From positions 1-64,000 of the forward strand of contig JAFTCJ010000009.1 in assembly GCA_017454765.1 (NCBI GenBank): 64,000 bases of DNA. Reading direction: 5' to 3'. The DNA comes from Erysipelotrichaceae bacterium (GTDB taxonomy: Bacteria > Bacillota_I > Bacilli_A > Erysipelotrichales > Erysipelotrichaceae). Shown one piece after another: positions 49,063-62,041 of the stretch. The translations under genes were made by a program, and so were the position numbers. The notes beneath the pieces were generated by a model. It was given only the letters and a program-made list of their open reading frames with translations, searched no databases and was not told where the DNA came from. The stretch's first letter is position 1; each line of letters begins with the position of its first letter.

Positions 49063-49782
49063 TTAGAAATGTTTGATCCTTCCCTTGAAATGTTCGTAGA
49101 TCGCATTGTTGTCAAAACCGTCCACATTCTGGGACTGGAAGACATAAGGCCTCTTGCCGTGACTTGTGACGATGCGGATCGCTTCCGATACCACCGTATT
49201 GATCAGAAACATCGAGATGATCGAAGAAGCCGGACCGGTCTCGATCCCGTCGATATTCAGAGAAGCATCTCCCGAAGGAACACAGGTATCGATGATGCAG
49301 TCAGCGCATTCAAAGAGTCTCTTCCCGGAAGGATGTCTGGAAGTCGTGTTCTTTGACTGCTCGACATTGGTCAAAGCTACAACGTATACACCTTCCTTCT
49401 GGCAGCGCATCGCCATCTCGATCGGCATCGCGTTCCTGCCGGAATTGGAAGTGATGATCATCATGTCGCCCTTCTCAATGTTGTAGGAATCATAGATGAC
49501 ATCGGATACGCCGCAGACCTTTTCCATGGCACCCGATCTCTGGGCACCGAAAGAAGTCAGCACATCCGGATCCAGCATCGCATCGACATTGCCCAATCCG
49601 CCGGCTCTGGCAAACAGTTCGATCCCCAGCATGTGGGAATGGCCGGTACCGAAGGTATGGATCAGTCTGTCGTTTTCGATGTTTTCGGCCATCTTTTCCG
49701 CCAGTTCCCTGATGACATCTTTATTCTTTTCTTCAGCAGTTTTCAGCAGTTCGCTGATCTTGTTTCCGTATTCATAAATCAT
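49063..49782 (-). CDS. SIS-domain phosphosugar-binding protein, UPF0309-like (paralog A)
   Basis: The 239-residue protein (ATG 49782, 9 bases after GGGGAG) has a SIS fold: LIHTFGTGHSHMLGIELFARAGGLGN (phosphosugar Ser loop), MMIITSNSGRNAMPIEMAM (second Ser loop), RHPSGKRLFECAD and DASLNIDGI. UPF0309/SIS proteins bind or isomerise phosphosugars; no reaction is set for these members. It is the last of three tandem SIS genes and overlaps paralog B by a few bases. Confidence 0.8.
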   Translation of the reverse strand: MIYEYGNKISELLKTAEEKNKDVIRELAEKMAENIENDRLIHTFGTGHSHMLGIELFARAGGLGNVDAMLDPDVLTSFGAQRSGAMEKVCGVSDVIYDSYNIEKGDMMIITSNSGRNAMPIEMAMRCQKEGVYVVALTNVEQSKNTTSRHPSGKRLFECADCIIDTCVPSGDASLNIDGIETGPASSIISMFLINTVVSEAIRIVTSHGKRPYVFQSQNVDGFDNNAIYEHFKGRIKHF

Positions 49783-49784
49783 AA

Positions 49785-50513
49785 TCAAGCTCTCCCCTCA
49801 TATTTCTTCTTTAATGCATCATCATGCGCCTTGTCACCGTTCAATACCGGAAGCTCGAATCTGTCTTCCTTGAGCAGTTCCACCGTCCTGGCTGCCATGG
49901 ACTGGGCAACACAGTTGTTGCAGATGGAGGAAACGGAACTGACCTTCTCTACGCCGTCTGTCTGAATCAAGGCGTCACCGTGCGGTCCGCAGTTGTCGAT
50001 GACGATGTCACCGAATTCATAAAGCTTCTTTCCGGAAGGATGTCTGGGCTCTTCCGCCAGTGTATGCTTCATCGAAGTGATGATGATGACCTTATGGCCA
50101 TTTTTCTTTGCCAGATCGGCGATATCGATGACGATGCCGTTGATGCCGGAATTGGAAATGACGATGAAGATATCCTGCGGCCTGATGTCATAAAGATCAT
50201 AAAGCTGTTTGGCGACACCCGGCTTGCGTTCGAAGATATTCTTGCGGTCCATGAATTCCTCAACGGAGATATTGCCTCTGGTCACGAAATCAGACATCTC
50301 CATGATGTGGATCGGCACCAGGGCTCCGACTCTGTTCTTGATGTCGATACCAAGACCTACGGAGTGTCCCGAACCGAAGACATGGACGACACCGTCTTTT
50401 TCAATGCACTCCTTAAAAGCCTGGGCTGCCGCTTCGATATTTTCTTTCTGCGAATCGTATAACTGATCCAGCAGGACAAAGAGTTCTTCCTTGAAACGTA
50501 ATGCGTCTATCAT
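49785..50513 (-). CDS. SIS-domain phosphosugar-binding protein, UPF0309-like (paralog B)
   Basis: The 242-residue protein has VVHVFGSGHSVGLGIDI, LVPIHIMEMSDFVTRG, IFIVISNSGINGIVIDIADLAKK, RHPSGKKLYEFGDIVIDNCGPHGDAL and a C-terminal helical segment. The two phosphosugar serine loops are intact. Its start touches the stop of paralog C and its stop overlaps paralog A, indicating coupled translation. Divergence from A and C argues for distinct substrates or a hetero-oligomer. Confidence 0.8.
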   Translation of the reverse strand: MIDALRFKEELFVLLDQLYDSQKENIEAAAQAFKECIEKDGVVHVFGSGHSVGLGIDIKNRVGALVPIHIMEMSDFVTRGNISVEEFMDRKNIFERKPGVAKQLYDLYDIRPQDIFIVISNSGINGIVIDIADLAKKNGHKVIIITSMKHTLAEEPRHPSGKKLYEFGDIVIDNCGPHGDALIQTDGVEKVSSVSSICNNCVAQSMAARTVELLKEDRFELPVLNGDKAHDDALKKKYEGRA

Positions 50514-51292
50514 CAGCGGATCCTCCTTCCATAGGGATCGGTCAGGGAATCGTTATGCACATCCGCTCCCTTGATGTTTGCCGATAAGAGTACCGGCGCT
50601 CTTTTTCCCTGTTTTTCAAACCAGGCATAGATCTCCGATGTCAGCATCTGGGCGATGCAGTTGGAGACCGTTGAAGACAGCTGTCCGACCTTCACCCCTT
50701 CCAGACACAGCGCAGTATCCGGTTCTTCCGCACACATATCCAGCCATTCATCGCAATACTGTAACAGTCTTCCGTCATGTGCATCATAAGACTTTTTATT
50801 GACGACACCGACCAGTTTCTGGCCTCTTTCCTTAACTCTTTTTGCGATCTCCAGCAAGAGAGGCTCATTGCCGTAGAAACTGACCAGACAGTACATGTCC
50901 CTGTCGTCCAGTTCATAGATCTCTTCAAATCTGTCGGCAACGCTCACATCCTCATAGATCTTACCGGAATCGATATCTTCCTGTCTGATCATCTCCTTGA
51001 GGATCAGTTCCTTCAGTTTCAGACCGTGGAACGGTGCGATACCGCCGGCCCGGTAATTGAGTTCATTGACGAATTCCTCGCCGTGATTCACACCGAAAAG
51101 CTGAACGACGCCTCCGTTTTCCATGCACCGTCCAAACATTTCCGCTATCCTTTCGATCTTATCCTTCTGCAAGTCATAAGCCTCATCGACTTTCATCTTC
51201 ACAAGATCGAAATACTGCTTCATGATGTCCATATGATATTTCTCACTTTCTACAGCTTCATTATAAACCTTTATGATCTCGCCCATACACAT
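50513..51292 (-). CDS. SIS-domain protein (paralog C)
   Basis: The 259-residue SIS protein has VVQLFGVNHGEEFVNELNYRAGGIAPFHG, YCLVSFYGNEPLLLEIAKRVKERGQKLVGVV and EEPDTALCLEGVKVGQLSSTVSN. The usual Ser-rich G-T-G-x-S loops are altered here (FGVNHG, SFYGNE), so phosphosugar binding may be changed or lost. First gene of the SIS operon; the start is ATG 51292 or an ATG two codons on, with weak GACGGA upstream. Divergent from the EIIA gene. Confidence 0.75.
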   Translation of the reverse strand: MCMGEIIKVYNEAVESEKYHMDIMKQYFDLVKMKVDEAYDLQKDKIERIAEMFGRCMENGGVVQLFGVNHGEEFVNELNYRAGGIAPFHGLKLKELILKEMIRQEDIDSGKIYEDVSVADRFEEIYELDDRDMYCLVSFYGNEPLLLEIAKRVKERGQKLVGVVNKKSYDAHDGRLLQYCDEWLDMCAEEPDTALCLEGVKVGQLSSTVSNCIAQMLTSEIYAWFEKQGKRAPVLLSANIKGADVHNDSLTDPYGRRIR

Positions 51293-51307
51293 TCCGTCTC
51301 ATTTTGC

Positions 51308-51335
51308 GGTATACTGGAAGCAGATATGGGGGAAA
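51308..51335. promoter_or_regulatory. Compact divergent promoter between SIS operon and EIIA
   Basis: CGGTATACTGG holds TATACT on the plus strand (for EIIA, GGGGGAAA ribosome binding site) and TATACC on the minus strand. Only 47 bases separate the two start codons, so the genes are probably co-regulated. Confidence 0.45.
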
Positions 51336-51339
51336 TATC

Positions 51340-51750
51340 ATGAAAGGTATCGTAATCACCAGCCACGGACCTATGGCCCAGGGCATTCTTGAAACATCAA
51401 AACTCTTTTTCGGCGAACAGCCGCAGATCAAAGCCTGCTGCCTGTCAGCTGAAGACAATCCCGATGAATTCGTCGATGTACTGAAAGCCGCCATTGCCGA
51501 AGTTGACACCGGCGACGGTGTCGTTGTATTCTGCGATATGCTGTTTGGATCACCATGCAACTGCATGGCCCGCATCGCAGCGGAAGACATGGAAAGCGAC
51601 AAGCTGCAGGTCATCACCGGCGTCAATCTGGCAATGATCTTACAGATCCTGGCCACCAGAGAAGCGGGTGATCCCGAAATGGAAGATCTGCTCAAGTCAG
51701 GACATGACGGCATTGCCGATCTCAAGGCGATCCTCAAAGCAAACTTATAA
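51340..51750 (+). CDS. Lone PTS EIIA, mannose type
   Basis: The 136-residue cytoplasmic EIIA has phospho-His9 in VITSHGPMAQGI and the family's DNPDEFVDVLKAAI, VVVFCDMLFGSPCNCMARI and VITGVNLAMILQIL blocks. I start it at the ATG after GGGGGAAA. No EIIB, EIIC or EIID is next to it; the mannose-type EIID at 24417 lacks an EIIA in its own cluster. It may serve that system, an amino-sugar PTS elsewhere, or a regulatory role with the SIS proteins. Confidence 0.85.
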   Translation: MKGIVITSHGPMAQGILETSKLFFGEQPQIKACCLSAEDNPDEFVDVLKAAIAEVDTGDGVVVFCDMLFGSPCNCMARIAAEDMESDKLQVITGVNLAMILQILATREAGDPEMEDLLKSGHDGIADLKAILKANL

Positions 51751-51781: not shown

Positions 51782-53128
51782 TCATCTTAAGCCGTTCTGC
51801 CTGCTCCACTTGGAACAATAAAAATACAAAGTCGCCATGGTCCCGGCCATCAGATAGCCGAAGGCCGTGGCCAGATACAGGATGTGCACATCATAGAAGA
51901 TCTGCAATCCCAACGAAACAAAGAGATACTTGCAGATGACCTGGCCGGTGATCGCGATGATCATCGGTATTTTGACGTTGCCCGCACCTCGGCAGGCGCC
52001 GTTGTAGATATGGGACAGGTTGATGAAAAACATCGCACCGACTGCCCATCTTATCATGGAAGTGCCGTAATGCAGGACCTCCGGATCACTGTTGAAACGC
52101 GATACCAGGAAAGGGGCAGCGGTATAGATGATCACGATCATGATGATCGTGCCGATACCGGAAATGAGTGCCGATTCCCGGATCGCTTCCTTGGCCCTGT
52201 CATTCCTGCCGGCGCCCATGTTCTGGGCGACCAGTGACATCGTCGCCGAAGAGACCGCGACTGAAACAAGCTGACACCAGCTGACGGTCTTTTCACCGAC
52301 ACCGATCCCGGCAATGACCTCATTGGGGAAGCGGTTGACATAGGACTGCACCAGCATTGAGGAAAATGCGATCAGCATGTTCTGGATGCCGGCCGGTATG
52401 CCCAGTTCGCAGATCTCGCCGATCACCCGGAATGAAAAATCCAAGTGACGGATATCGAAATCCACGCCCTCATAATTCAGCATCAGTCTCAGTGCCAGCA
52501 CATCCATGACGACCTGGGAGATCAGTGTCGCCAAAGCCGTACCGATGACGTTGAGGTTCAGCACTCTGACAAAAAGCATGCCCAGCAGAATATTGACGAT
52601 TGATGAAATGATCGAATAATACAGCTGATGTTTCGTATCGCCGAAACTGCGCAAAATAAAGAAACACATCTGGGATGTCAGCACTGCCACCGAACCCAGG
52701 ATATAGACTCTCATATACGCAAAGGCATCCGCATAGATATCCGGACCGATGTTGATGACCTTCAGCAGGAAAGGCAGAGCCAGCTCGGCGATCACTGTCA
52801 GGATACTGCCGCCGACAACGGAAAAGACCAGTGAAGAATCCAGTGATTTCTTGAGATTGTCATGGTCCTTTGCGCCGTAATAACCCGCGACCAGGATACC
52901 GGCTCCCATGCCCAGACCGTAGAACGAATAATTGAAGACGTTGCAGATCCAGGTACAGGCACTGACCGCACTCAAGGCCGTCAGGGAAACATAGTTGCCG
53001 ACGATCATCGAATTGGTGACATTGTAAAGTTCCGAAAAGATCATCGATACGAATACCGGCCAGGAGAAAGAAAAGATCAGTTTGCGGATATTGCCTTCCG
53101 TTAAGGAGACTGCCTTGTTTTTTGCCAT
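51782..53128 (-). CDS. MATE-family efflux transporter
   Basis: The 448-residue protein has 12 helices in two MatE repeats: LIFSFSWPVFVSMIFSELYNVTNSMIVGNYV, SFYGLGMGAGILVAGYYGAKDHD, and in repeat two IPAGIQNMLIAFSSMLVQSYVN, WCQLVSVAVSSATMSLVAQNMGAGRNDRAKEA and ACRGAGNVKIPM. MATE carriers export drugs or metabolites against H+ or Na+. It follows SIS paralog D by one base, so it is an odd partner for a sugar enzyme. Confidence 0.9.
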   Translation of the reverse strand: MAKNKAVSLTEGNIRKLIFSFSWPVFVSMIFSELYNVTNSMIVGNYVSLTALSAVSACTWICNVFNYSFYGLGMGAGILVAGYYGAKDHDNLKKSLDSSLVFSVVGGSILTVIAELALPFLLKVINIGPDIYADAFAYMRVYILGSVAVLTSQMCFFILRSFGDTKHQLYYSIISSIVNILLGMLFVRVLNLNVIGTALATLISQVVMDVLALRLMLNYEGVDFDIRHLDFSFRVIGEICELGIPAGIQNMLIAFSSMLVQSYVNRFPNEVIAGIGVGEKTVSWCQLVSVAVSSATMSLVAQNMGAGRNDRAKEAIRESALISGIGTIIMIVIIYTAAPFLVSRFNSDPEVLHYGTSMIRWAVGAMFFINLSHIYNGACRGAGNVKIPMIIAITGQVICKYLFVSLGLQIFYDVHILYLATAFGYLMAGTMATLYFYCSKWSRQNGLR

Positions 53129-53877
53129 CAGAGGTTCCTTATCCTGTAGAAATATTTATCAACGAGCCTGTCATTATGGTCGGCACAGTTTTCATCCATG
53201 AAAGCCAGATGGCCGTTATAGTAGACGTCCGGTTTGAATCCTCTTTCCACCAATATCTCGACCATCTGCGTCAGGATCGCATTCTGCAGGTATACATTGG
53301 GGATCGTCGAAGTCGAACCCACCTTCATCTCAAAACCTTCGATATCGACAGCCGCATCACCGATCAGGGAACAGTTGTCCAGCACGACATCGGCGACATC
53401 CTTGAGCTTGACGCCGTCTTTGTGTTTCGTTTTGAGATAATCCGAATATTCCACCGCCGTGATCGCAATGACGGGGATGCCCTTTTCTTTCGCTCTTAAA
53501 GCCGCATCCACCGGAGCGATATTGTTGCCGGAATTGGAGATGATGATCATGCAGTCGTTGGGCGTGATGCGATGATAATCGACGATCATCTTTCCGATCC
53601 CGTAGGTATTTTCAACATAGTAAGACTTGGTGATCTCCTGATTGCCCGAAGCCGAAGGCTCCAGCAGGGCACAGTAGTTGGCCGGCGTTGCCGCCCGCCA
53701 GAAGGCATCATCACAGACCAGATGGGAATGACCGGTACCGAAACCGTAAATGATGCCGCCCTTTTCAGTCGTATCCGCCAGGATCTCAGCCGCCTTCATG
53801 ATATTGCCGGCCTGCGTTGTCCTGACTTTTTCAATGATATGATCGATCTGCTCAAAATAGCTTTCCCAGGCTTTCAT
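53128..53877 (-). CDS. SIS-domain phosphosugar-binding protein, UPF0309-like (paralog D)
   Basis: The 249-residue protein has GIIYGFGTGHSHLVCDDAFWRAATPANYCALLEPS (first Ser loop), CMIIISNSGNNIAPVDAALRAKE (second Ser loop), KHKDGVKLKDVADVVLDNCSLIGDAAVDIEG and a C-terminal NGHLAFMDENCADHNDRLVDKYF. Both phosphosugar loops are intact. GTGAGGAGTATATATC precedes the ATG and TATAAT is at 53905-53900. It starts the two-gene operon with MATE. Confidence 0.85.
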   Translation of the reverse strand: MKAWESYFEQIDHIIEKVRTTQAGNIMKAAEILADTTEKGGIIYGFGTGHSHLVCDDAFWRAATPANYCALLEPSASGNQEITKSYYVENTYGIGKMIVDYHRITPNDCMIIISNSGNNIAPVDAALRAKEKGIPVIAITAVEYSDYLKTKHKDGVKLKDVADVVLDNCSLIGDAAVDIEGFEMKVGSTSTIPNVYLQNAILTQMVEILVERGFKPDVYYNGHLAFMDENCADHNDRLVDKYFYRIRNL

Positions 53878-54007: not shown

Positions 54008-56443
54008 ATGAGCCGCATCGTGATCGGTGTCTATGCCCATGTGGATGGGGGAAAGACGACTCTATCGGAAGCCATCCTGCACAAATGCGGTGTCATCAAG
54101 GAAACAGGAAGGGTCGATCATGAGGATTCCTTCCTTGATTTTCATCACTATGAAAGAGAAAAAGGCATCACCGTCTACTCCAAGGAAGCCCGCTTTTCCT
54201 ATGGAAACAAGGATTTCATCTATGTCGATACGCCCGGTCATCTGGATTTCATCGGCGAAGTCAACCGCACCTACCAGATCCTGGATCTGGCGATCCTGAT
54301 CATCGATGCCTCATCGAATATCCCCTCTGACACGATCAGACGTTTTTCCCACCTCAGGAGTCTGCATATCCCGGTCTGTATCTTTTTAAACAAGATGGAC
54401 ATCGCTCATCAGAGTAAAGATGAACTGCTTGCCGCAGTCAGAAAGCAGCTGGATCCTTCAATCGTACCCTATACGGAAACAGCGGAAGCAGTCGCTTTAA
54501 ATCATGAAGAACTCTTAGAAAAATACCTGTCTCACAATGAAGTGGATGAATCGTATATCATCTCTGACCTGAAAGAAGCAAGCATCTATCCCCTGTTTTT
54601 CGGATCGGCTTTACACGAAGAAGGCGTTGATGAACTGTTAGACTACATCTGCCGCTACGTTGAAGTTCCGGAACCTTCTTCCCGCTTCAAAGCCTATCTT
54701 TATAAAAACGATGAATATGCCCATCTGAAGATCTTTTCCGGAACACTCAGAAACAAAGACGTCATCGCCGATCACAAGATCAACGAGATCGTCCTGTTCA
54801 ACGGAAACAGAAGCGAAGCAGTCAGGGAAGTCAAAGGAAACGACCTCTGTGCCGTCAAAGGCCTGCAGGATCTCAAGCCCGGTACCTGGCTTCCTTCCCT
54901 GTTTGTGCAGGATAACGGCGAGCTCAACACCCTGAGCTACCGCATCCTTTCCGATCTCAATGCAAACGAACTCTACAGAAAGATCTCTGCTTTGAATCAG
55001 GAATTCCCGGAACTCAATCTTACATTGAGCGATCACGTCTCTGCCGATCTGACCGGTGAACTGCAGAAAGATTTCATCCGCAAGCTGATCAAAGAGCGTT
55101 TTGATCTGGATATCGTTTTTTCAAAACGGCTGATCTCCTACCGCGAAAGCATCGAAGATGAAGTCTGGGGCATCGGCCACTATGAACCCTTACGCCACTA
55201 TGGCGAAGTGCTTGTTTCCCTCAGACCGTCAGACAGCTACAAAGTCAAAGGAAAAAAGGAATTCTCTGTCCTTCTGGATTATCTCAAGACCTACCGTCCC
55301 TGCGGACTTCTCACCGATTCACCTCTCGATCAGATCGAGATCGAGATCGTCGATGTCCGTACCCATCTCAAACATACCGAAGGCGGAGACCTCATCCAGT
55401 CCTTGAACAGAGCGATCCGTCAGGCTTTATCCAAAGCACATTCCATCCTGCTGGAACCCTACTATGTGGTCAGTTTCAGCGGCGATCAGAAAACACTCAA
55501 CGGCATCATTTCAGAGCTTTCATCCCTGCAGTATGTCTTTGATTTGGAAGAAGAGATGATCATGGCCAAGATCGCCAAACACAGTTTCAACGACCTCATC
55601 ATCTCCCTCAGAAACCGCTTCAAGGATGATTTCTCTCATTCAATCGAAGGAGAGGTCTACGACCGCTGCCGCAATGAGGAAGAAGTGATTGGGCGCATCG
55701 GCTATGATTATCGAAGCGACGCTGCCAAACCGGCTGGATCGGTCTTCACCAGAAACGGCGCCGGCGTCTATATCCCGCCTGAGGAAGTCGAAGAGAATAT
55801 GCATCTTAATTTCAGGGATTACTTCCCCGACTACAAACCGCCGGAGAAACAGCCTTCCCGCAGGATCGGCGAAGCGGAGCTCAAGCGCGTCTGGAATTCC
55901 TTATACAAAGAAAAACCGCGTTTCATCGAAAGACAGAGCGAGAAAGAAAAAGAGACCAGGAAAGAATCCGTTCCTGCCAAGGAACTCTTATATCTGGTCG
56001 ACGGCTACAATGTCATGCATGAGATGGACAACATCCCGCTGGATGATCTGCTGACAGCCAGAGAAAAGGTCATCAACCTGGTCTGCGACTTTGCCGGCTA
56101 TGTTTCGGCGTACTGCGTCCTGATCTTCGACGCTTATCTGCAGGATGCCTCTCAGGCAACGGTATCCCAGAGAGACAATATCTCCCTGGTCTACACGAAA
56201 AAAGGACAGACCGCCGATATGTATATCGAAGCCAAGGCGAAAGAACTGAAAGACCGGTATCGCATCATCGTCGTCACCTCCGATGCCCTGGAACAGCTTT
56301 CTATCTTCTCCAGCGATGCCTTCCGTCTTTCCAGCCGGGAATTCCTGGCCCGCTATCACAACATGCAGAAGAACATGATCCACATTGAAAAGGTATCCAA
56401 CCGTCCTCTTGAAAAACTCAGAGAACTGCTGGATGAATCCTGA
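54008..56443 (+). CDS. TetM-like translational GTPase fused to a Rae1/YacP-type NYN nuclease domain
   Basis: The 811-residue protein has an EF-G-like GTPase of the ribosomal-protection type: AHVDGGKTTLSEA (G1), EKGITVYS (G2 Thr), YVDTPGHLDFI (G3), FLNKMDI (G4), GSAL (G5), then domain II, domain III-like, domain IV with REVKG and domain V-like sheets to ~600. A charged linker (~600-655) leads to a C-terminal NYN domain (~658-790): LLYLVDGYNVMH, AREKVINLVCDFAGY, VLIFDAYL, VYTKKGQTADMYIE, VTSDALEQLSIF, RLSSREF, matching Rae1 (YacP), which cuts mRNA in the ribosomal A site. Inferred role: delivers a nuclease to ribosomes, or a ribosome rescue or protection factor. Acidic and glycine residues typical of both active sites are intact. 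Confidence 0.9.
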   Translation: MSRIVIGVYAHVDGGKTTLSEAILHKCGVIKETGRVDHEDSFLDFHHYEREKGITVYSKEARFSYGNKDFIYVDTPGHLDFIGEVNRTYQILDLAILIIDASSNIPSDTIRRFSHLRSLHIPVCIFLNKMDIAHQSKDELLAAVRKQLDPSIVPYTETAEAVALNHEELLEKYLSHNEVDESYIISDLKEASIYPLFFGSALHEEGVDELLDYICRYVEVPEPSSRFKAYLYKNDEYAHLKIFSGTLRNKDVIADHKINEIVLFNGNRSEAVREVKGNDLCAVKGLQDLKPGTWLPSLFVQDNGELNTLSYRILSDLNANELYRKISALNQEFPELNLTLSDHVSADLTGELQKDFIRKLIKERFDLDIVFSKRLISYRESIEDEVWGIGHYEPLRHYGEVLVSLRPSDSYKVKGKKEFSVLLDYLKTYRPCGLLTDSPLDQIEIEIVDVRTHLKHTEGGDLIQSLNRAIRQALSKAHSILLEPYYVVSFSGDQKTLNGIISELSSLQYVFDLEEEMIMAKIAKHSFNDLIISLRNRFKDDFSHSIEGEVYDRCRNEEEVIGRIGYDYRSDAAKPAGSVFTRNGAGVYIPPEEVEENMHLNFRDYFPDYKPPEKQPSRRIGEAELKRVWNSLYKEKPRFIERQSEKEKETRKESVPAKELLYLVDGYNVMHEMDNIPLDDLLTAREKVINLVCDFAGYVSAYCVLIFDAYLQDASQATVSQRDNISLVYTKKGQTADMYIEAKAKELKDRYRIIVVTSDALEQLSIFSSDAFRLSSREFLARYHNMQKNMIHIEKVSNRPLEKLRELLDES

Positions 56444-57633: not shown

Positions 57634-60600
57634 TCAGATATCCGTCAGTTTCAGATGCTTTACCTTGCGCAAAGCCTGGGCAGAGATCAGCGCCGAGAAC
57701 AGACCGGTGATTGCAGCGGCGAACAGCCAGCCGAGGAAATAGACACGGCGGTCGAAGCAGTTGATCATCTCCAGCAGCAGGATGATGCGGTAGGCGATAT
57801 ATGATCCGGCCAGCAGGCCGATGATGATACCGATCAGTGTCGTCATGACCATCTCTCTGCCGACATAATTCTTGACCTCTCTGACCGTAAAGCCGTTGAT
57901 ACGCATGATCGTCAGTTCCCTCTTCTTCTGGTTGACGAAGAGATTCACCAGATTGAGCAGGATGAAATATGCCATGATAAAAGCCATCACCGTCAGCAGG
58001 ATGACGCTCAGACGGGAAGTGGCAACGAAGCTGTCAAGCATATATTTGCGGTCAAATGAGTGATAATATTTGTCGACTCCTTCCAGACTCTCCATCTGTG
58101 ATCTGATCTCTTCCGCTTTTTTCTCATCGATCCTGATCTGATATACGTTATAGTTGGGAGCATCATCGAAGACCTCTCTGTAGGCTTCATCGGACATGAT
58201 CAGGAAGCGTGCCGTATACAGCATGAAAATGTCATTGACCTTCACATCGAAGGGTTCCGTGTTGCCGCTGAAGATCGTGATATAACCGTCTTTGGAATAT
58301 CCAGCGATCTCATCCATCTTCAAAGGCACATAAACACCCGGAGCATGGCTGTCCATCTTCATCTCTTCTTTCGTTTCCGGATCATTGCACAGTGTGAATT
58401 CCTGAATCTGTTCCAGATCTCCGCACAGGATATCGACTGTATCGAGCTGATCATTACTCATGAACATCTTCTTGTTCATGGCGACCCTGATATATTCCGC
58501 ATCGTTTCGATCGAGCAGTTCCTCGATCTGTTTTTCTATTTCACTGTTTTCTTCGATATCGTAATCCACCAGATAGTTGTAACGGTAAACTTCATCAAAC
58601 TGGATATCGATTCCTGACGACATGGAGTGCGAGATCGTCAGGCCGATCAGGATCAGAGCGCAGGATCCGGCGACCGAAACGATCGTCACAAGGACTCTCT
58701 TGGAGTCACTCAGCATGTTTCTGATGATCAGACGCGAATATAAGGAAAGACTGCTGCTGCCGTTTCCGCTCTTCTTTCTTCCTTCCGGTGCAGCATCCTG
58801 CATCAGGACCCTTGCCGGAGATTTGATCATGCGGTTGCAGGCCAGGAAGACGGCTGCCGAAGACAGAAGCAGCGCCAGTACAAGAACGATGAGCGTCGGA
58901 ACGATCTCAAACAGCGGCTTGCCTCCGCCGATGACGTAATAAGACATCTCCTGCCTCAGCATGGCCGTTTCGACCGCGAAATAAGCAATCGCAACGCCTA
59001 AAAGACAGCCGGCCATCGTAGCCGAACAGCCGAACGTCAGATACTTGTGGAAGATCTCGCTGTTGAAGAAACCGAGAGCCTTGGTCGTACCCACGAGTTT
59101 GCGTTGTTCGTCGATCGACTTGCCGACAGTCGCATAAATGACCAGAGCTCCTACAAAGACAAAGAGCAGCGAGAATGTCGAAGAAATACTCGCAAAGTTG
59201 CCCGAGAGATTCTTGGTGAAAATATAGGAAACACTGCCGTTGACATTGAGTGTCAGCCAGCGGTTATCAGCCAGTTCATCGATCTTCTTTTCGGCATCCT
59301 CGAGCTCTTTCTTTGCATCTTCATACTCTTGTACGCCATCGAGGTATTCCTGATACTTTTCTTCATATTCCTTTTTGGCATCGTTCAGTTTTGCCTTGCT
59401 GTTGTTATATTTATTTTTTGCGTTTTGAAGTTCAACCTTACCGTTTTCGTACTCTTCCAAGCCAAGCAAATATTGGGAATAGGCACTATGATATTCCGCC
59501 CATCCCATGGAGAGCTGCTGTTTTCCAGCCAGGTACTTTTTATGGCCTTCTTCCCATTCCCTGGCCATTGCGACCACATCATCTCCGGTAATAAAACTGG
59601 ATGCAGGGATCTTCGCTGCTGTCTCATCCGAAGTCATATCTACATAATAATTTTCAGCAAGTTCAAAATGTGTCAAAGTCAGATTCGAATCATCGATATC
59701 GTAATCGGTGTTTTGTGACGGCGTTCTTGATAAGGGATCGTCCACCAGATACATGAATAAATAGGCACGACTTGCCAACAACAGCTCATACTCATCTGCC
59801 AGCTCCTGTTTAGCGGTCCTCAACTGTTTATCACCATAATTGAGTTCTTCTTCAGCCTTACCGAGCTTGTATATTGCCCCATCCAGAGCCTCCTTGGCTT
59901 CATCAAGCTGAGCCTGTCCGTCAGAGATCTCCTTCCAGGAAGAAGCCAGCTTCTTTTCATTGGATCTGATCTCTTCATCGGCTTCGTCCAAGTCTTTCTT
60001 TGCCTGATCAAGATCCTTCTTGCCGTCTTCCAGTTTTTCGCGGTTGCTGTCGATCTCTTTCTGATACTCATCCCTGATCTGCTCATAGCGGACCTTCGCT
60101 CTTCCTTCACCGAAGTCATCAAGTTCATCCTGTGCCGAAGTGTACAGTTTCTTGTAATCTTTTCCGTAACGGTAAACATCGTCATCCTTCTTCAGCGTGA
60201 GGATCGCCGAACTGTAACAGTCGTTATAGGCCTCATCTGAAAAAGCATCCATCAGCACCATGACATACCTGGTCTCCGGAGCGGAGTCATAGTTGGAAAC
60301 ATGGTCCGGATGAGTGGCGATACCGCTGATGATGAATTCCTGCTGATCAAGATAATCTGTTTCCGAAAAATTGATGCGGTCTCCGACTTTCAGTCCCAGC
60401 TCATCGGCAGTTTCCGATTCCAGCATGCATTCACCGACGTTCTTCGGATAGCTTCCTTCCAGTAAGAGCGGCCTGTTGATATGATCATTCAGGGAAATGA
60501 CGATGACGTCCCTGGAGATCTTGTTATGTTTCAGGCTGGTGTTGTATTTGCGGACACCTGCCACATCTTCGACGATCTCGCGTTCCTGAAGCGCCTTGAT

Positions 60601-60816
60601 GTCATCTTCACTTAAAAGCAGCGAAGCCAGGATCTCGATATCGCGGAAGTTTGTTTCTTTATAAGAGTCGTTTACATTGTGTCTTAAAGAATCCGCTGAA
60701 AAACGGATACCCAAAAAAGCCGTGACCGCAAGACAGGCAATGACGATGATCGAAAGCCAGGAAACAAACTGCTTGGAGATGTTCCTGACGGTGTCCTTGA
60801 TCTGAGTCGCTTTCAT
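57634..60816 (-). CDS. FtsX-type ABC transporter permease with extracytoplasmic coiled coil
   Basis: The 1060-residue permease has an N-terminal helix (FVSWLSIIVIACLAVTAFLGI), an extracytoplasmic MacB-PCD-like domain, a long Glu/Lys/Asp heptad-rich coiled coil (~235-350 and ~415-520), four helices near 550-720 with FtsX features (VGALVIYATVGKSIDEQRKLVGTTKALGF), a second extracytoplasmic domain (~770-940) and final FtsX helices ending LSAQALRKVKHLKLTDI. The partner ATPase begins 5 bases upstream. Such systems export peptides or lipids, or transmit mechanical signals to the cell wall. Confidence 0.9.
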   Translation of the reverse strand: MKATQIKDTVRNISKQFVSWLSIIVIACLAVTAFLGIRFSADSLRHNVNDSYKETNFRDIEILASLLLSEDDIKALQEREIVEDVAGVRKYNTSLKHNKISRDVIVISLNDHINRPLLLEGSYPKNVGECMLESETADELGLKVGDRINFSETDYLDQQEFIISGIATHPDHVSNYDSAPETRYVMVLMDAFSDEAYNDCYSSAILTLKKDDDVYRYGKDYKKLYTSAQDELDDFGEGRAKVRYEQIRDEYQKEIDSNREKLEDGKKDLDQAKKDLDEADEEIRSNEKKLASSWKEISDGQAQLDEAKEALDGAIYKLGKAEEELNYGDKQLRTAKQELADEYELLLASRAYLFMYLVDDPLSRTPSQNTDYDIDDSNLTLTHFELAENYYVDMTSDETAAKIPASSFITGDDVVAMAREWEEGHKKYLAGKQQLSMGWAEYHSAYSQYLLGLEEYENGKVELQNAKNKYNNSKAKLNDAKKEYEEKYQEYLDGVQEYEDAKKELEDAEKKIDELADNRWLTLNVNGSVSYIFTKNLSGNFASISSTFSLLFVFVGALVIYATVGKSIDEQRKLVGTTKALGFFNSEIFHKYLTFGCSATMAGCLLGVAIAYFAVETAMLRQEMSYYVIGGGKPLFEIVPTLIVLVLALLLSSAAVFLACNRMIKSPARVLMQDAAPEGRKKSGNGSSSLSLYSRLIIRNMLSDSKRVLVTIVSVAGSCALILIGLTISHSMSSGIDIQFDEVYRYNYLVDYDIEENSEIEKQIEELLDRNDAEYIRVAMNKKMFMSNDQLDTVDILCGDLEQIQEFTLCNDPETKEEMKMDSHAPGVYVPLKMDEIAGYSKDGYITIFSGNTEPFDVKVNDIFMLYTARFLIMSDEAYREVFDDAPNYNVYQIRIDEKKAEEIRSQMESLEGVDKYYHSFDRKYMLDSFVATSRLSVILLTVMAFIMAYFILLNLVNLFVNQKKRELTIMRINGFTVREVKNYVGREMVMTTLIGIIIGLLAGSYIAYRIILLLEMINCFDRRVYFLGWLFAAAITGLFSALISAQALRKVKHLKLTDI

Positions 60817-60820
60817 ATGA

Positions 60821-62041
60821 TTACCAGGAGAGTTCCTCCGGAGCCAGCGGATGCAGATTGCGCTTGATGCTGGCGATACGTCCGTTCTGGACTCTGACGA
60901 TGCGGTCCGCCAGTTTGCCTATCTCGGCATTGTGCGTGACCATCATGACAGTCGTGTTGTTGTTTCTGACGATGTCCCTGATGACAGAAAGGACTTCGAT
61001 ACTGGTATTGAGATCCAGAGCCGCCGTAGGCTCATCAGCCAGGATCAGTCTGGGATTCTTGACGATGGCTCTGGCGATGGAAACACGCTGCTGCTGTCCG
61101 CCGGAAAGCTGAGCCGGATAGTTGTTTTCTCTGTCGCTGAGTCCGACTTTGGCGATGGCCTGTTTCGCTTCGATGGGATCGTTGACGATCTCAGCAATAA
61201 ACTGGACGTTTTCCAGAGCCGTCAGATTGGGCATCAGGTTATAGGACTGGAAAATGAAACCGAGGTATTCCCTGCGGAAACGCGTCAGTTCTTCATCGTC
61301 GGGTTTGGAGAAATCCCGGCCTTCGATCAGCAGTTTTCCGTCAGTCAGGTAATCCATGCCGCCGATGATGTTCATCATCGTCGATTTGCCGCAGCCCGAT
61401 TCACCCAGAACCACGACAAACTCGCCCTCATAGACTTTCAGATTGATGCCCTTCAGGACTCTTAAGACACCGTCACCGGACGGATAATCCTTGACGACAT
61501 CGATCAGCTCGCAGAGAACATCCTTCTCCTCGCCGAAATCGACGATCAGTCCTTTTTCTTCTATCGTAATGGCAGCCAGTGCCGCCATATGTTCGCATAG
61601 TTCAAGCTCCTCTTCATCGTAGAGGCTGCCGTTTTTCTTGTTGATGATCTGCACACAGCCGATCGTGTCATGCCCGTTATTCAGCGGAACGCAGATCATG
61701 CTGGTGGTCTTGAGACCCTGGCCGTCAAAGACGGTCGGTTCAAAACGCGGATCGTTCGCCGGATCCGTGATCATGATCGACTTTCCGGTCTTGGTCACGA
61801 CACCTTCGATACCGATGCCGTTTTCAATGCTGTAATTGGATATATCAGCCGGACCGATATGAAATACTGAATGAAGACGGTCGCTCTTTTCATCCAGATA
61901 CCAGATCGCACCCGCTTCCGAATCCAGTGTCTTTACGATCCTCTGCAGGCTTCCCGATAAGGCATCATCGAGATCATCGACATTGAGCAGCTGCTCCATG
62001 ATCTCGTAAGTCGCTTTTACAAATCTCTCATTACGTTCCAT
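60821..62041 (-). CDS. GAF-domain/ABC ATPase fusion (MacB/LolD-type ATPase)
   Basis: The 406-residue protein has an N-terminal GAF domain (~1-165: AGAIWYLDEKSDRLHSVFHIG, GIGIEGVVTKTGKSIMITDP, MICVPLNNGHDTIGCVQIINKK) joined to an ABC ATPase (~175-395) with GESGCGKSTMM (Walker A), FIFQSYNLMPNLTALENV (Q-loop), LSGGQQQRVSIARA (signature), LILADEPTAALD (Walker B) and VTH (H-loop). It powers the permease at 57634. The GAF part suggests regulation by a small ligand or signal, unusual for this ATPase family. CGAGGTT ribosome binding site. Confidence 0.9.
   Translation of the reverse strand: MERNERFVKATYEIMEQLLNVDDLDDALSGSLQRIVKTLDSEAGAIWYLDEKSDRLHSVFHIGPADISNYSIENGIGIEGVVTKTGKSIMITDPANDPRFEPTVFDGQGLKTTSMICVPLNNGHDTIGCVQIINKKNGSLYDEEELELCEHMAALAAITIEEKGLIVDFGEEKDVLCELIDVVKDYPSGDGVLRVLKGINLKVYEGEFVVVLGESGCGKSTMMNIIGGMDYLTDGKLLIEGRDFSKPDDEELTRFRREYLGFIFQSYNLMPNLTALENVQFIAEIVNDPIEAKQAIAKVGLSDRENNYPAQLSGGQQQRVSIARAIVKNPRLILADEPTAALDLNTSIEVLSVIRDIVRNNNTTVMMVTHNAEIGKLADRIVRVQNGRIASIKRNLHPLAPEELSW

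Follow-up and report, generated by a model that had tools for sequence, protein, structure and literature searches.

The window, a 64,000-nucleotide stretch of DNA from an Erysipelotrichaceae genome, contains a gene in which a Tet/EF-G-type translational GTPase is joined to a C-terminal NYN nuclease domain of the YacP/Rae1 type, in a gut-bacterial lineage where no free rae1 gene was detected at its usual place in the 11 genomes checked. On balance we favour the reading that this gene is the lineage's Rae1-type mRNA endonuclease, fused to a GTPase from a sister clade of the Tet proteins, which would recruit or time it, and cutting mRNA on ribosomes whose A site is vacant or slow. Within this group of bacteria it appears to be the sole enzyme of the Rae1 type, so its role is probably one of routine mRNA quality control and not of antibiotic resistance, and the notion of a ribosome-directed nuclease, put forward in an earlier note on this DNA, is the one that fits best. 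The author of that note knew of no functional description of such fusions. Indeed, no functional or biochemical study of any GTPase–NYN fusion was found in the literature searched, but the fusion itself is already in print: the addition of NYN to Tet proteins was reported for ten Clostridiales, together with a guess, offered with no experiment, that an RNase assists tetracycline resistance (Atkinson 2015, PMC4342817). What is new here is the empty rae1 operon site of the lineage, the stepwise reduction of the fusion and a domain IV tip that has lost its drug-displacing residue.

The fusion gene and its domains

The features of the gene are collected in Table 1.

Table 1. Features of the fusion gene, in window coordinates
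Feature	Position	Strand	Evidence and remarks
Complete fusion gene, Tet/EF-G-type translational GTPase plus YacP/Rae1-type NYN	54008..56443	+	ATG start, 811 aa; same-length homologues in related genomes
GTP-binding (G) domain, residues 4–219, five G motifs intact	54017..54664	+	Pfam GTP_EFTU, E 1.1e-44; motif residues conserved in 56 homologues
Domains IV–V region, residues 372–600	55121..55807	+	Alignments; natural deletion, missing in two congeners (L061, L062)
Conserved domain IV motif GH[FY]EPLRHYAEV, residues 390–401	55175..55210	+	Unlike TetM VPPNPFWASIG; present in non-fused relatives too
Domain IV tip loop III, THLKHTEGGDL, residues 452–462	55361..55393	+	K455 aligned with TetM Pro509
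Conserved pre-NYN helix motif E-E-L-K-R-V-[WF]..-Y-K/G, residues 620–640	55865..55927	+	Kept in NYN-only genes; helix in structure model
YacP/Rae1-type NYN nuclease domain, residues 663–804	55994..56419	+	Pfam NYN_YacP, E 6e-31; Rae1 5mq9 by sequence and fold; D665, D708, D737, E741, D759

A Pfam search of the 811-aa ORF returned nothing of weight beyond GTP_EFTU and NYN_YacP, the latter (PF05991) scoring 108 bits against a cut-off of 24.6. When the PDB was searched by sequence, TetM was the first match to the GTPase part (E 2e-33) and Rae1/YacP of Bacillus subtilis the only match to the NYN part (E 2.6e-13). The EF-G-like domain order and the five G motifs, namely AHVDGGKTT (residues 10–18), T55, DTPGH (74–78), NKMD (128–131) and GSAL (199–202), fit the ORF to the translational GTPases of the EF2 family, as judged from Pfam and alignments. 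Within the nuclease domain lie VDGYN (D665), FDAY (D708), QTAD (D737), E741, TSD (D759) and SSREF; across 56 homologues the four aspartates are invariant, while conservation of E741 is at least 90%. Modelling of the C-terminal 197 residues gave a mean pLDDT of 72.4, and the top three fold matches of the NYN part are to Rae1 (5mq8/5mq9; E 2.5e-8 to 1.6e-7, TM 0.60–0.67 by target length), these being the only fold matches with E < 0.001. The earlier note had described this ORF as a GTPase with all five G motifs intact and a Rae1-like domain bearing DGYN, FDA, TAD, TSD and SSREF, a description that the Pfam, PDB and fold searches confirm and in which every named motif was located.

The GTPase part is separated from the NYN domain by a linker of about 60 residues. 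Full-length AlphaFold2 modelling with five close homologues reached a mean pLDDT of 46, too low for the placement of domains. Since the same architecture recurs in many genomes, the fusion is neither a product of chance nor an artefact of assembly. Upstream of the gene there is no Rfam element and no convincing leader.

Elsewhere in the window, several SIS-like sugar isomerase ORFs on the minus strand (49063–51292 and 53128–53877) flank a PTS EIIA-type gene (51304–51750, plus strand), and these genes near the fusion likely form an aminosugar catabolic cluster. Inspection of translations by eye also finds a 1060-aa permease-like ORF with a coiled-coil insert (57634–60816), beside a 406-aa ORF which reads as an N-terminal GAF-like sensor combined with an ABC-transporter ATPase (60821–62041).

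Distribution, the empty rae1 site and natural reduction

The source genome (1.7 Mb, 72% complete) has its nearest named relatives among Erysipelotrichaceae metagenome-assembled genomes from ruminants, at 69–73% protein identity, and at this completeness the fusion is the sole YacP domain found in it. YacP matches are present in 115 of the 196 genomes examined from the family, such that the gene is wholly absent from ~40% of the sample and is accordingly dispensable. In a phylum-wide sample of 392 genomes there are 39 YacP matches above the cut-off, of which 37 sit in ORFs of 812–1109 aa; the two shorter ones, when inspected, were found to be a form with domains IV–V deleted and a split form (G002 and G076). 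Inspection of the shorter YacP ORFs of the 196-genome set covered those of G002, G093, G170, G149, G076 and G150; some of the others lie near contig ends. The confident YacP domains found in this Erysipelotrichaceae lineage belong to the fusion or to its reduced forms. Beyond the lineage, two Clostridia records, from Monoglobus and Agathobacter, carry the same architecture. They are also the only plasmid records on which fusions were found, and both are non-mobilizable; with no close copy found on plasmids, an origin of the fusion in a mobile element was rejected.

In B. subtilis, Listeria, S. aureus, Aerococcus and C. difficile a free NYN gene, rae1, lies between rlmB and sigH and downstream of cysS and the mini-RNase III gene, the order of the operon being cysS-mrnC-rlmB-[rae1]-sigH-rpmG-secE-nusG. 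Three Rae1 queries in tblastn detected no rae1 within this operon in any of 11 genomes of the lineage, the source genome included. The operon is otherwise present in all 11, with mrnC and rlmB and, after them, sigH and/or rpmG-secE-nusG wherever the stretch reaches that far. This empty site, taken together with the finding of YacP only in the fusion or its reduced forms, argues that the fusion substitutes for free Rae1 in the lineage.

Four genomes of the window's own genus contain reduced forms. In two of these (loci L061 and L062, genomes G002 and G093) the proteins are 594 and 603 aa long and have lost the domains IV–V region, retaining residues 1–369 (domains G, II and III) and 620–810 (the pre-NYN helix and NYN). 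Between the two proteins the retained GTPase part is 64% conserved and the NYN part 61%; because these values are similar, the GTPase remnant does not look to be decaying. In the other two (L063 and L064, genomes G170 and G149) only the NYN part is left, as genes of 201 and 205 aa which start at the pre-NYN helix, stand directly after ung and adjoin folC as well. A full fusion occupies the same place after ung, with folC divergent upstream, in genome G187 (L071), an arrangement which suggests that the NYN-only genomes lost the GTPase in situ. In the NYN tree, both reduced types are nested in the fused clade (an 18-row clade that includes G018, support 100/100), with support of 100/99 for the NYN-only pair and 100/98 for the pair lacking domain IV. 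A domain IV–V profile detected no separate GTPase of this type in the NYN-only genomes, in which it met EF-G-like and LepA-like matches only, at ~96 bits or less, as against 257–294 bits in true fusions. The nuclease domain is therefore kept without an intact GTPase part. In other words, the nuclease is the conserved core of the protein, the part that is kept when pieces of the GTPase go.

The pre-NYN helix, which is kept in both the fused and the NYN-only forms, may be an anchor; in the split gene, however, the NYN ORF is not preceded by it. A split fusion is seen at L065 (2527–5018), where a GTPase ORF and a NYN ORF share the sequence GTGA as their overlap, close to an A-rich run. As it occurs in a single genome, this may be a sequencing error, a true split or a programmed frameshift.

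The GTPase clade and the Tet proteins

The fusions group in a single clade of the GTPase tree (100/100), which is sister to, and not inside, the TetM/O/Q group (100/98) and stands apart from EF-G. They diverge at the tip of domain IV, where TetM/O/Q have Y-Y-[S/N]-P-V-S-T and most rows of the aligned fusions have x-H-x-K-H-T-E-G-G-D. The proline of the TetM motif, Pro509, is placed in the tetracycline site in a review (PMC8161019). The Pro509 motif is absent from the fusions aligned, its position being taken by lysine (K455), and across 56 sequences H456 is invariant, with K455 and T457 each at least 90% conserved. The first loop of domain IV differs likewise, since the fusions carry GHFEPLRHYAEV in place of VPPNPFWASIG of TetM. 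As the tip with Pro509 is replaced by Lys-His-Thr, tetracycline protection by the route of TetM appears, from these alignments, unlikely. The earlier note's designation of the GTPase as ‘TetM type’ should accordingly be read more narrowly, as a sister clade of TetM/O/Q whose tip is without the tetracycline-displacing proline.

GTPases of this type are also found on their own. A profile scan of IMG/VR and plasmid records recovered proteins of 644–726 aa which share the domain IV motifs and the end of domain V but have no NYN, from two IMG/VR types, Paenibacillus, Ligilactobacillus salivarius and Subdoligranulum. The proposition that this GTPase type never occurs without NYN, which is true of the NYN-less lineage genomes searched, was dropped as a general statement once these proteins were found. 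The Paenibacillus record has a separate Rae1-type NYN region as well. Two activities that some bacteria keep on separate proteins and others fuse, as here with GTPase and NYN, usually signal a shared pathway. Equally, the occurrence of the GTPase without NYN means that it has a role of its own, one which a surveillance-nuclease model does not explain.

Several further records were noted in passing. On L. salivarius plasmid NZ_CP117984.1 (L250, 2980–4914) a GTPase with these domain IV motifs and no fusion partner adjoins a copy of rpsN (S14); the copies of several strains are annotated as tetracycline resistance, yet the tip lacks the Tet proline. Two records from human faeces labelled ‘Bacteriophage sp.’, MT835514.1 and MT835563.1 (L252 and L124), carry a KHTEGGD-type GTPase with DGYN downstream, in L252 within a single ORF of 890 aa; these may be bacterial contigs filed as phage.

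Proposed function and comparison with known systems

When an EF-G-like factor is bound to the ribosome, a long distance separates the mRNA from the C-terminus of domain V, and the A site is occupied by domain IV. Any cleavage in the A site would hence require a large movement of the NYN domain, the reach of which is permitted by the linker. On the mechanism that we favour, a ribosome whose A site is vacant or slow would be bound at its factor-binding site by the GTP-bound GTPase part, and the NYN domain on its linker would cut the mRNA of that same ribosome in or near the A-site codon, after which the truncated complex would be handed over for rescue by tmRNA and for decay. Since the A site would be contested between domain IV and a docked Rae1, the nuclease would probably act after domain IV has withdrawn, or at a neighbouring position. 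Ribosome binding, mRNA as the substrate, position at the A site and control by GTP are all predictions for the fusion. They draw on the description of Rae1 as a ribosomal A-site endonuclease, access of which may increase at stalled ribosomes (PMC6613710, citing Leroy 2017), and on a report that A-site cleavage makes tmRNA rescue possible (PMC12320835). A tmRNA scores above the Rfam cut-off in six of eight genomes checked; none was found above it in the source genome, which is incomplete at 72%. A more elaborate proposal, to be held tentatively and with some reserve, is that of a GTP-controlled surveillance nuclease, in which the GTPase would probe for vacant A sites and license cleavage of the mRNA by the Rae1 nuclease in cis, the fusion having replaced free Rae1 in one lineage and the GTPase having later been shed in stages by some species.

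The published suggestion of Atkinson 2015, that such a protein is a ribosomal protection protein against tetracycline or another A-site drug with the nuclease aiding resistance, is commensurate with TetM being the best PDB match of the GTPase, with the sister relation to TetM/O/Q and with the naming of relatives as tetracycline resistance proteins in database annotation. It is nevertheless very unlikely to hold, given that in the fusions aligned a KHT motif puts lysine in place of Pro509 and the VPPNP loop has disappeared, that the score with the NCBIfam model tet_protect is 220 bits, below its equivalog cut-off of 775, and that the gene is spread widely through a chromosomal family, no close copy having turned up on plasmids. 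Moreover, congeners discard domains IV–V or the GTPase and yet keep the NYN.

Two other explanations retain the nuclease and change its target or its place of action. The enzyme could be a factor in stable-RNA processing or ribosome assembly, its GTPase docking on ribosomal particles while the NYN trims rRNA or tRNA instead of mRNA; the original prediction for NYN domains was a role in rRNA and tRNA maturation (as cited in PMC4342817), and in other Firmicutes rae1 adjoins mrnC and rlmB, two ribosomal RNA genes. This we regard as a minority possibility, for Rae1, the nearest relative to have been characterised, is described as a ribosome-associated mRNA endonuclease (PMC6613710), the gene is missing from many genomes, and the fusion has no conserved operon partner, the largest cluster of shared neighbours comprising four loci. 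Alternatively, the nuclease might be ribosome-bound and cut mRNA outside the A site, at the side of the entry channel or between collided ribosomes, while the GTPase removes or remodels the stalled ribosome. Such an arrangement would suit a NYN that comes after domain V, away from the decoding site, and a domain IV that would block the A site, and the pre-NYN helix, conserved in fused and NYN-only proteins alike, could serve as an anchor of its own. It is, however, unlikely, since the isolated NYN is most like Rae1, which is reported to act in the A site (PMC6613710), and NYN-only versions persist without the GTPase.

The favoured reading, that of a Rae1-type endonuclease acting on A-site-vacant or slow ribosomes, suggests an ordinary role in mRNA quality control, in place of tetracycline resistance, for many genes that are filed under the latter. 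The fusion ties an uncharacterised clade of translational GTPases to Rae1-type cleavage, and the occurrence of the full fusion, the fusion without domains IV–V and the NYN alone at the same locus provides ready-made constructs with which to address what the GTPase contributes.

With Rae1/YacP of B. subtilis (PDB 5mq8, 5mq9) the window protein has in common the NYN fold and the DGYN, FDA, TAD and TSD residues. The B. subtilis protein is, however, a single domain encoded between rlmB and sigH, whereas the window domain stands behind a GTPase at a different locus. An EF-G-like architecture is shared with Tet(M), Tet(O) and Tet(Q), the sister clade in the GTPase tree, from which the fusion differs in lacking the Y[SN]PVST loop III and the VPPNP loop, in possessing a C-terminal NYN, and in being chromosomal, with no mobile form found here. 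The non-fused KHT-type GTPases, named ‘translation factor GTPase family protein’, share with it GHFEPLRHYAEV, [K/x]HT.GGDF and the end of domain V, at which they terminate, having neither pre-NYN helix nor NYN. An identical domain order is found in the clostridial Tet–NYN fusions of Atkinson 2015, for example those of Monoglobus (862 aa) and Agathobacter (933 aa), which cluster with the present fusions in the GTPase tree (100/99 with the f19 loci). Those fusions were reported in Clostridiales, whereas the fusion described here belongs to an Erysipelotrichaceae line in which rae1 has gone from its operon and reduced forms occur.
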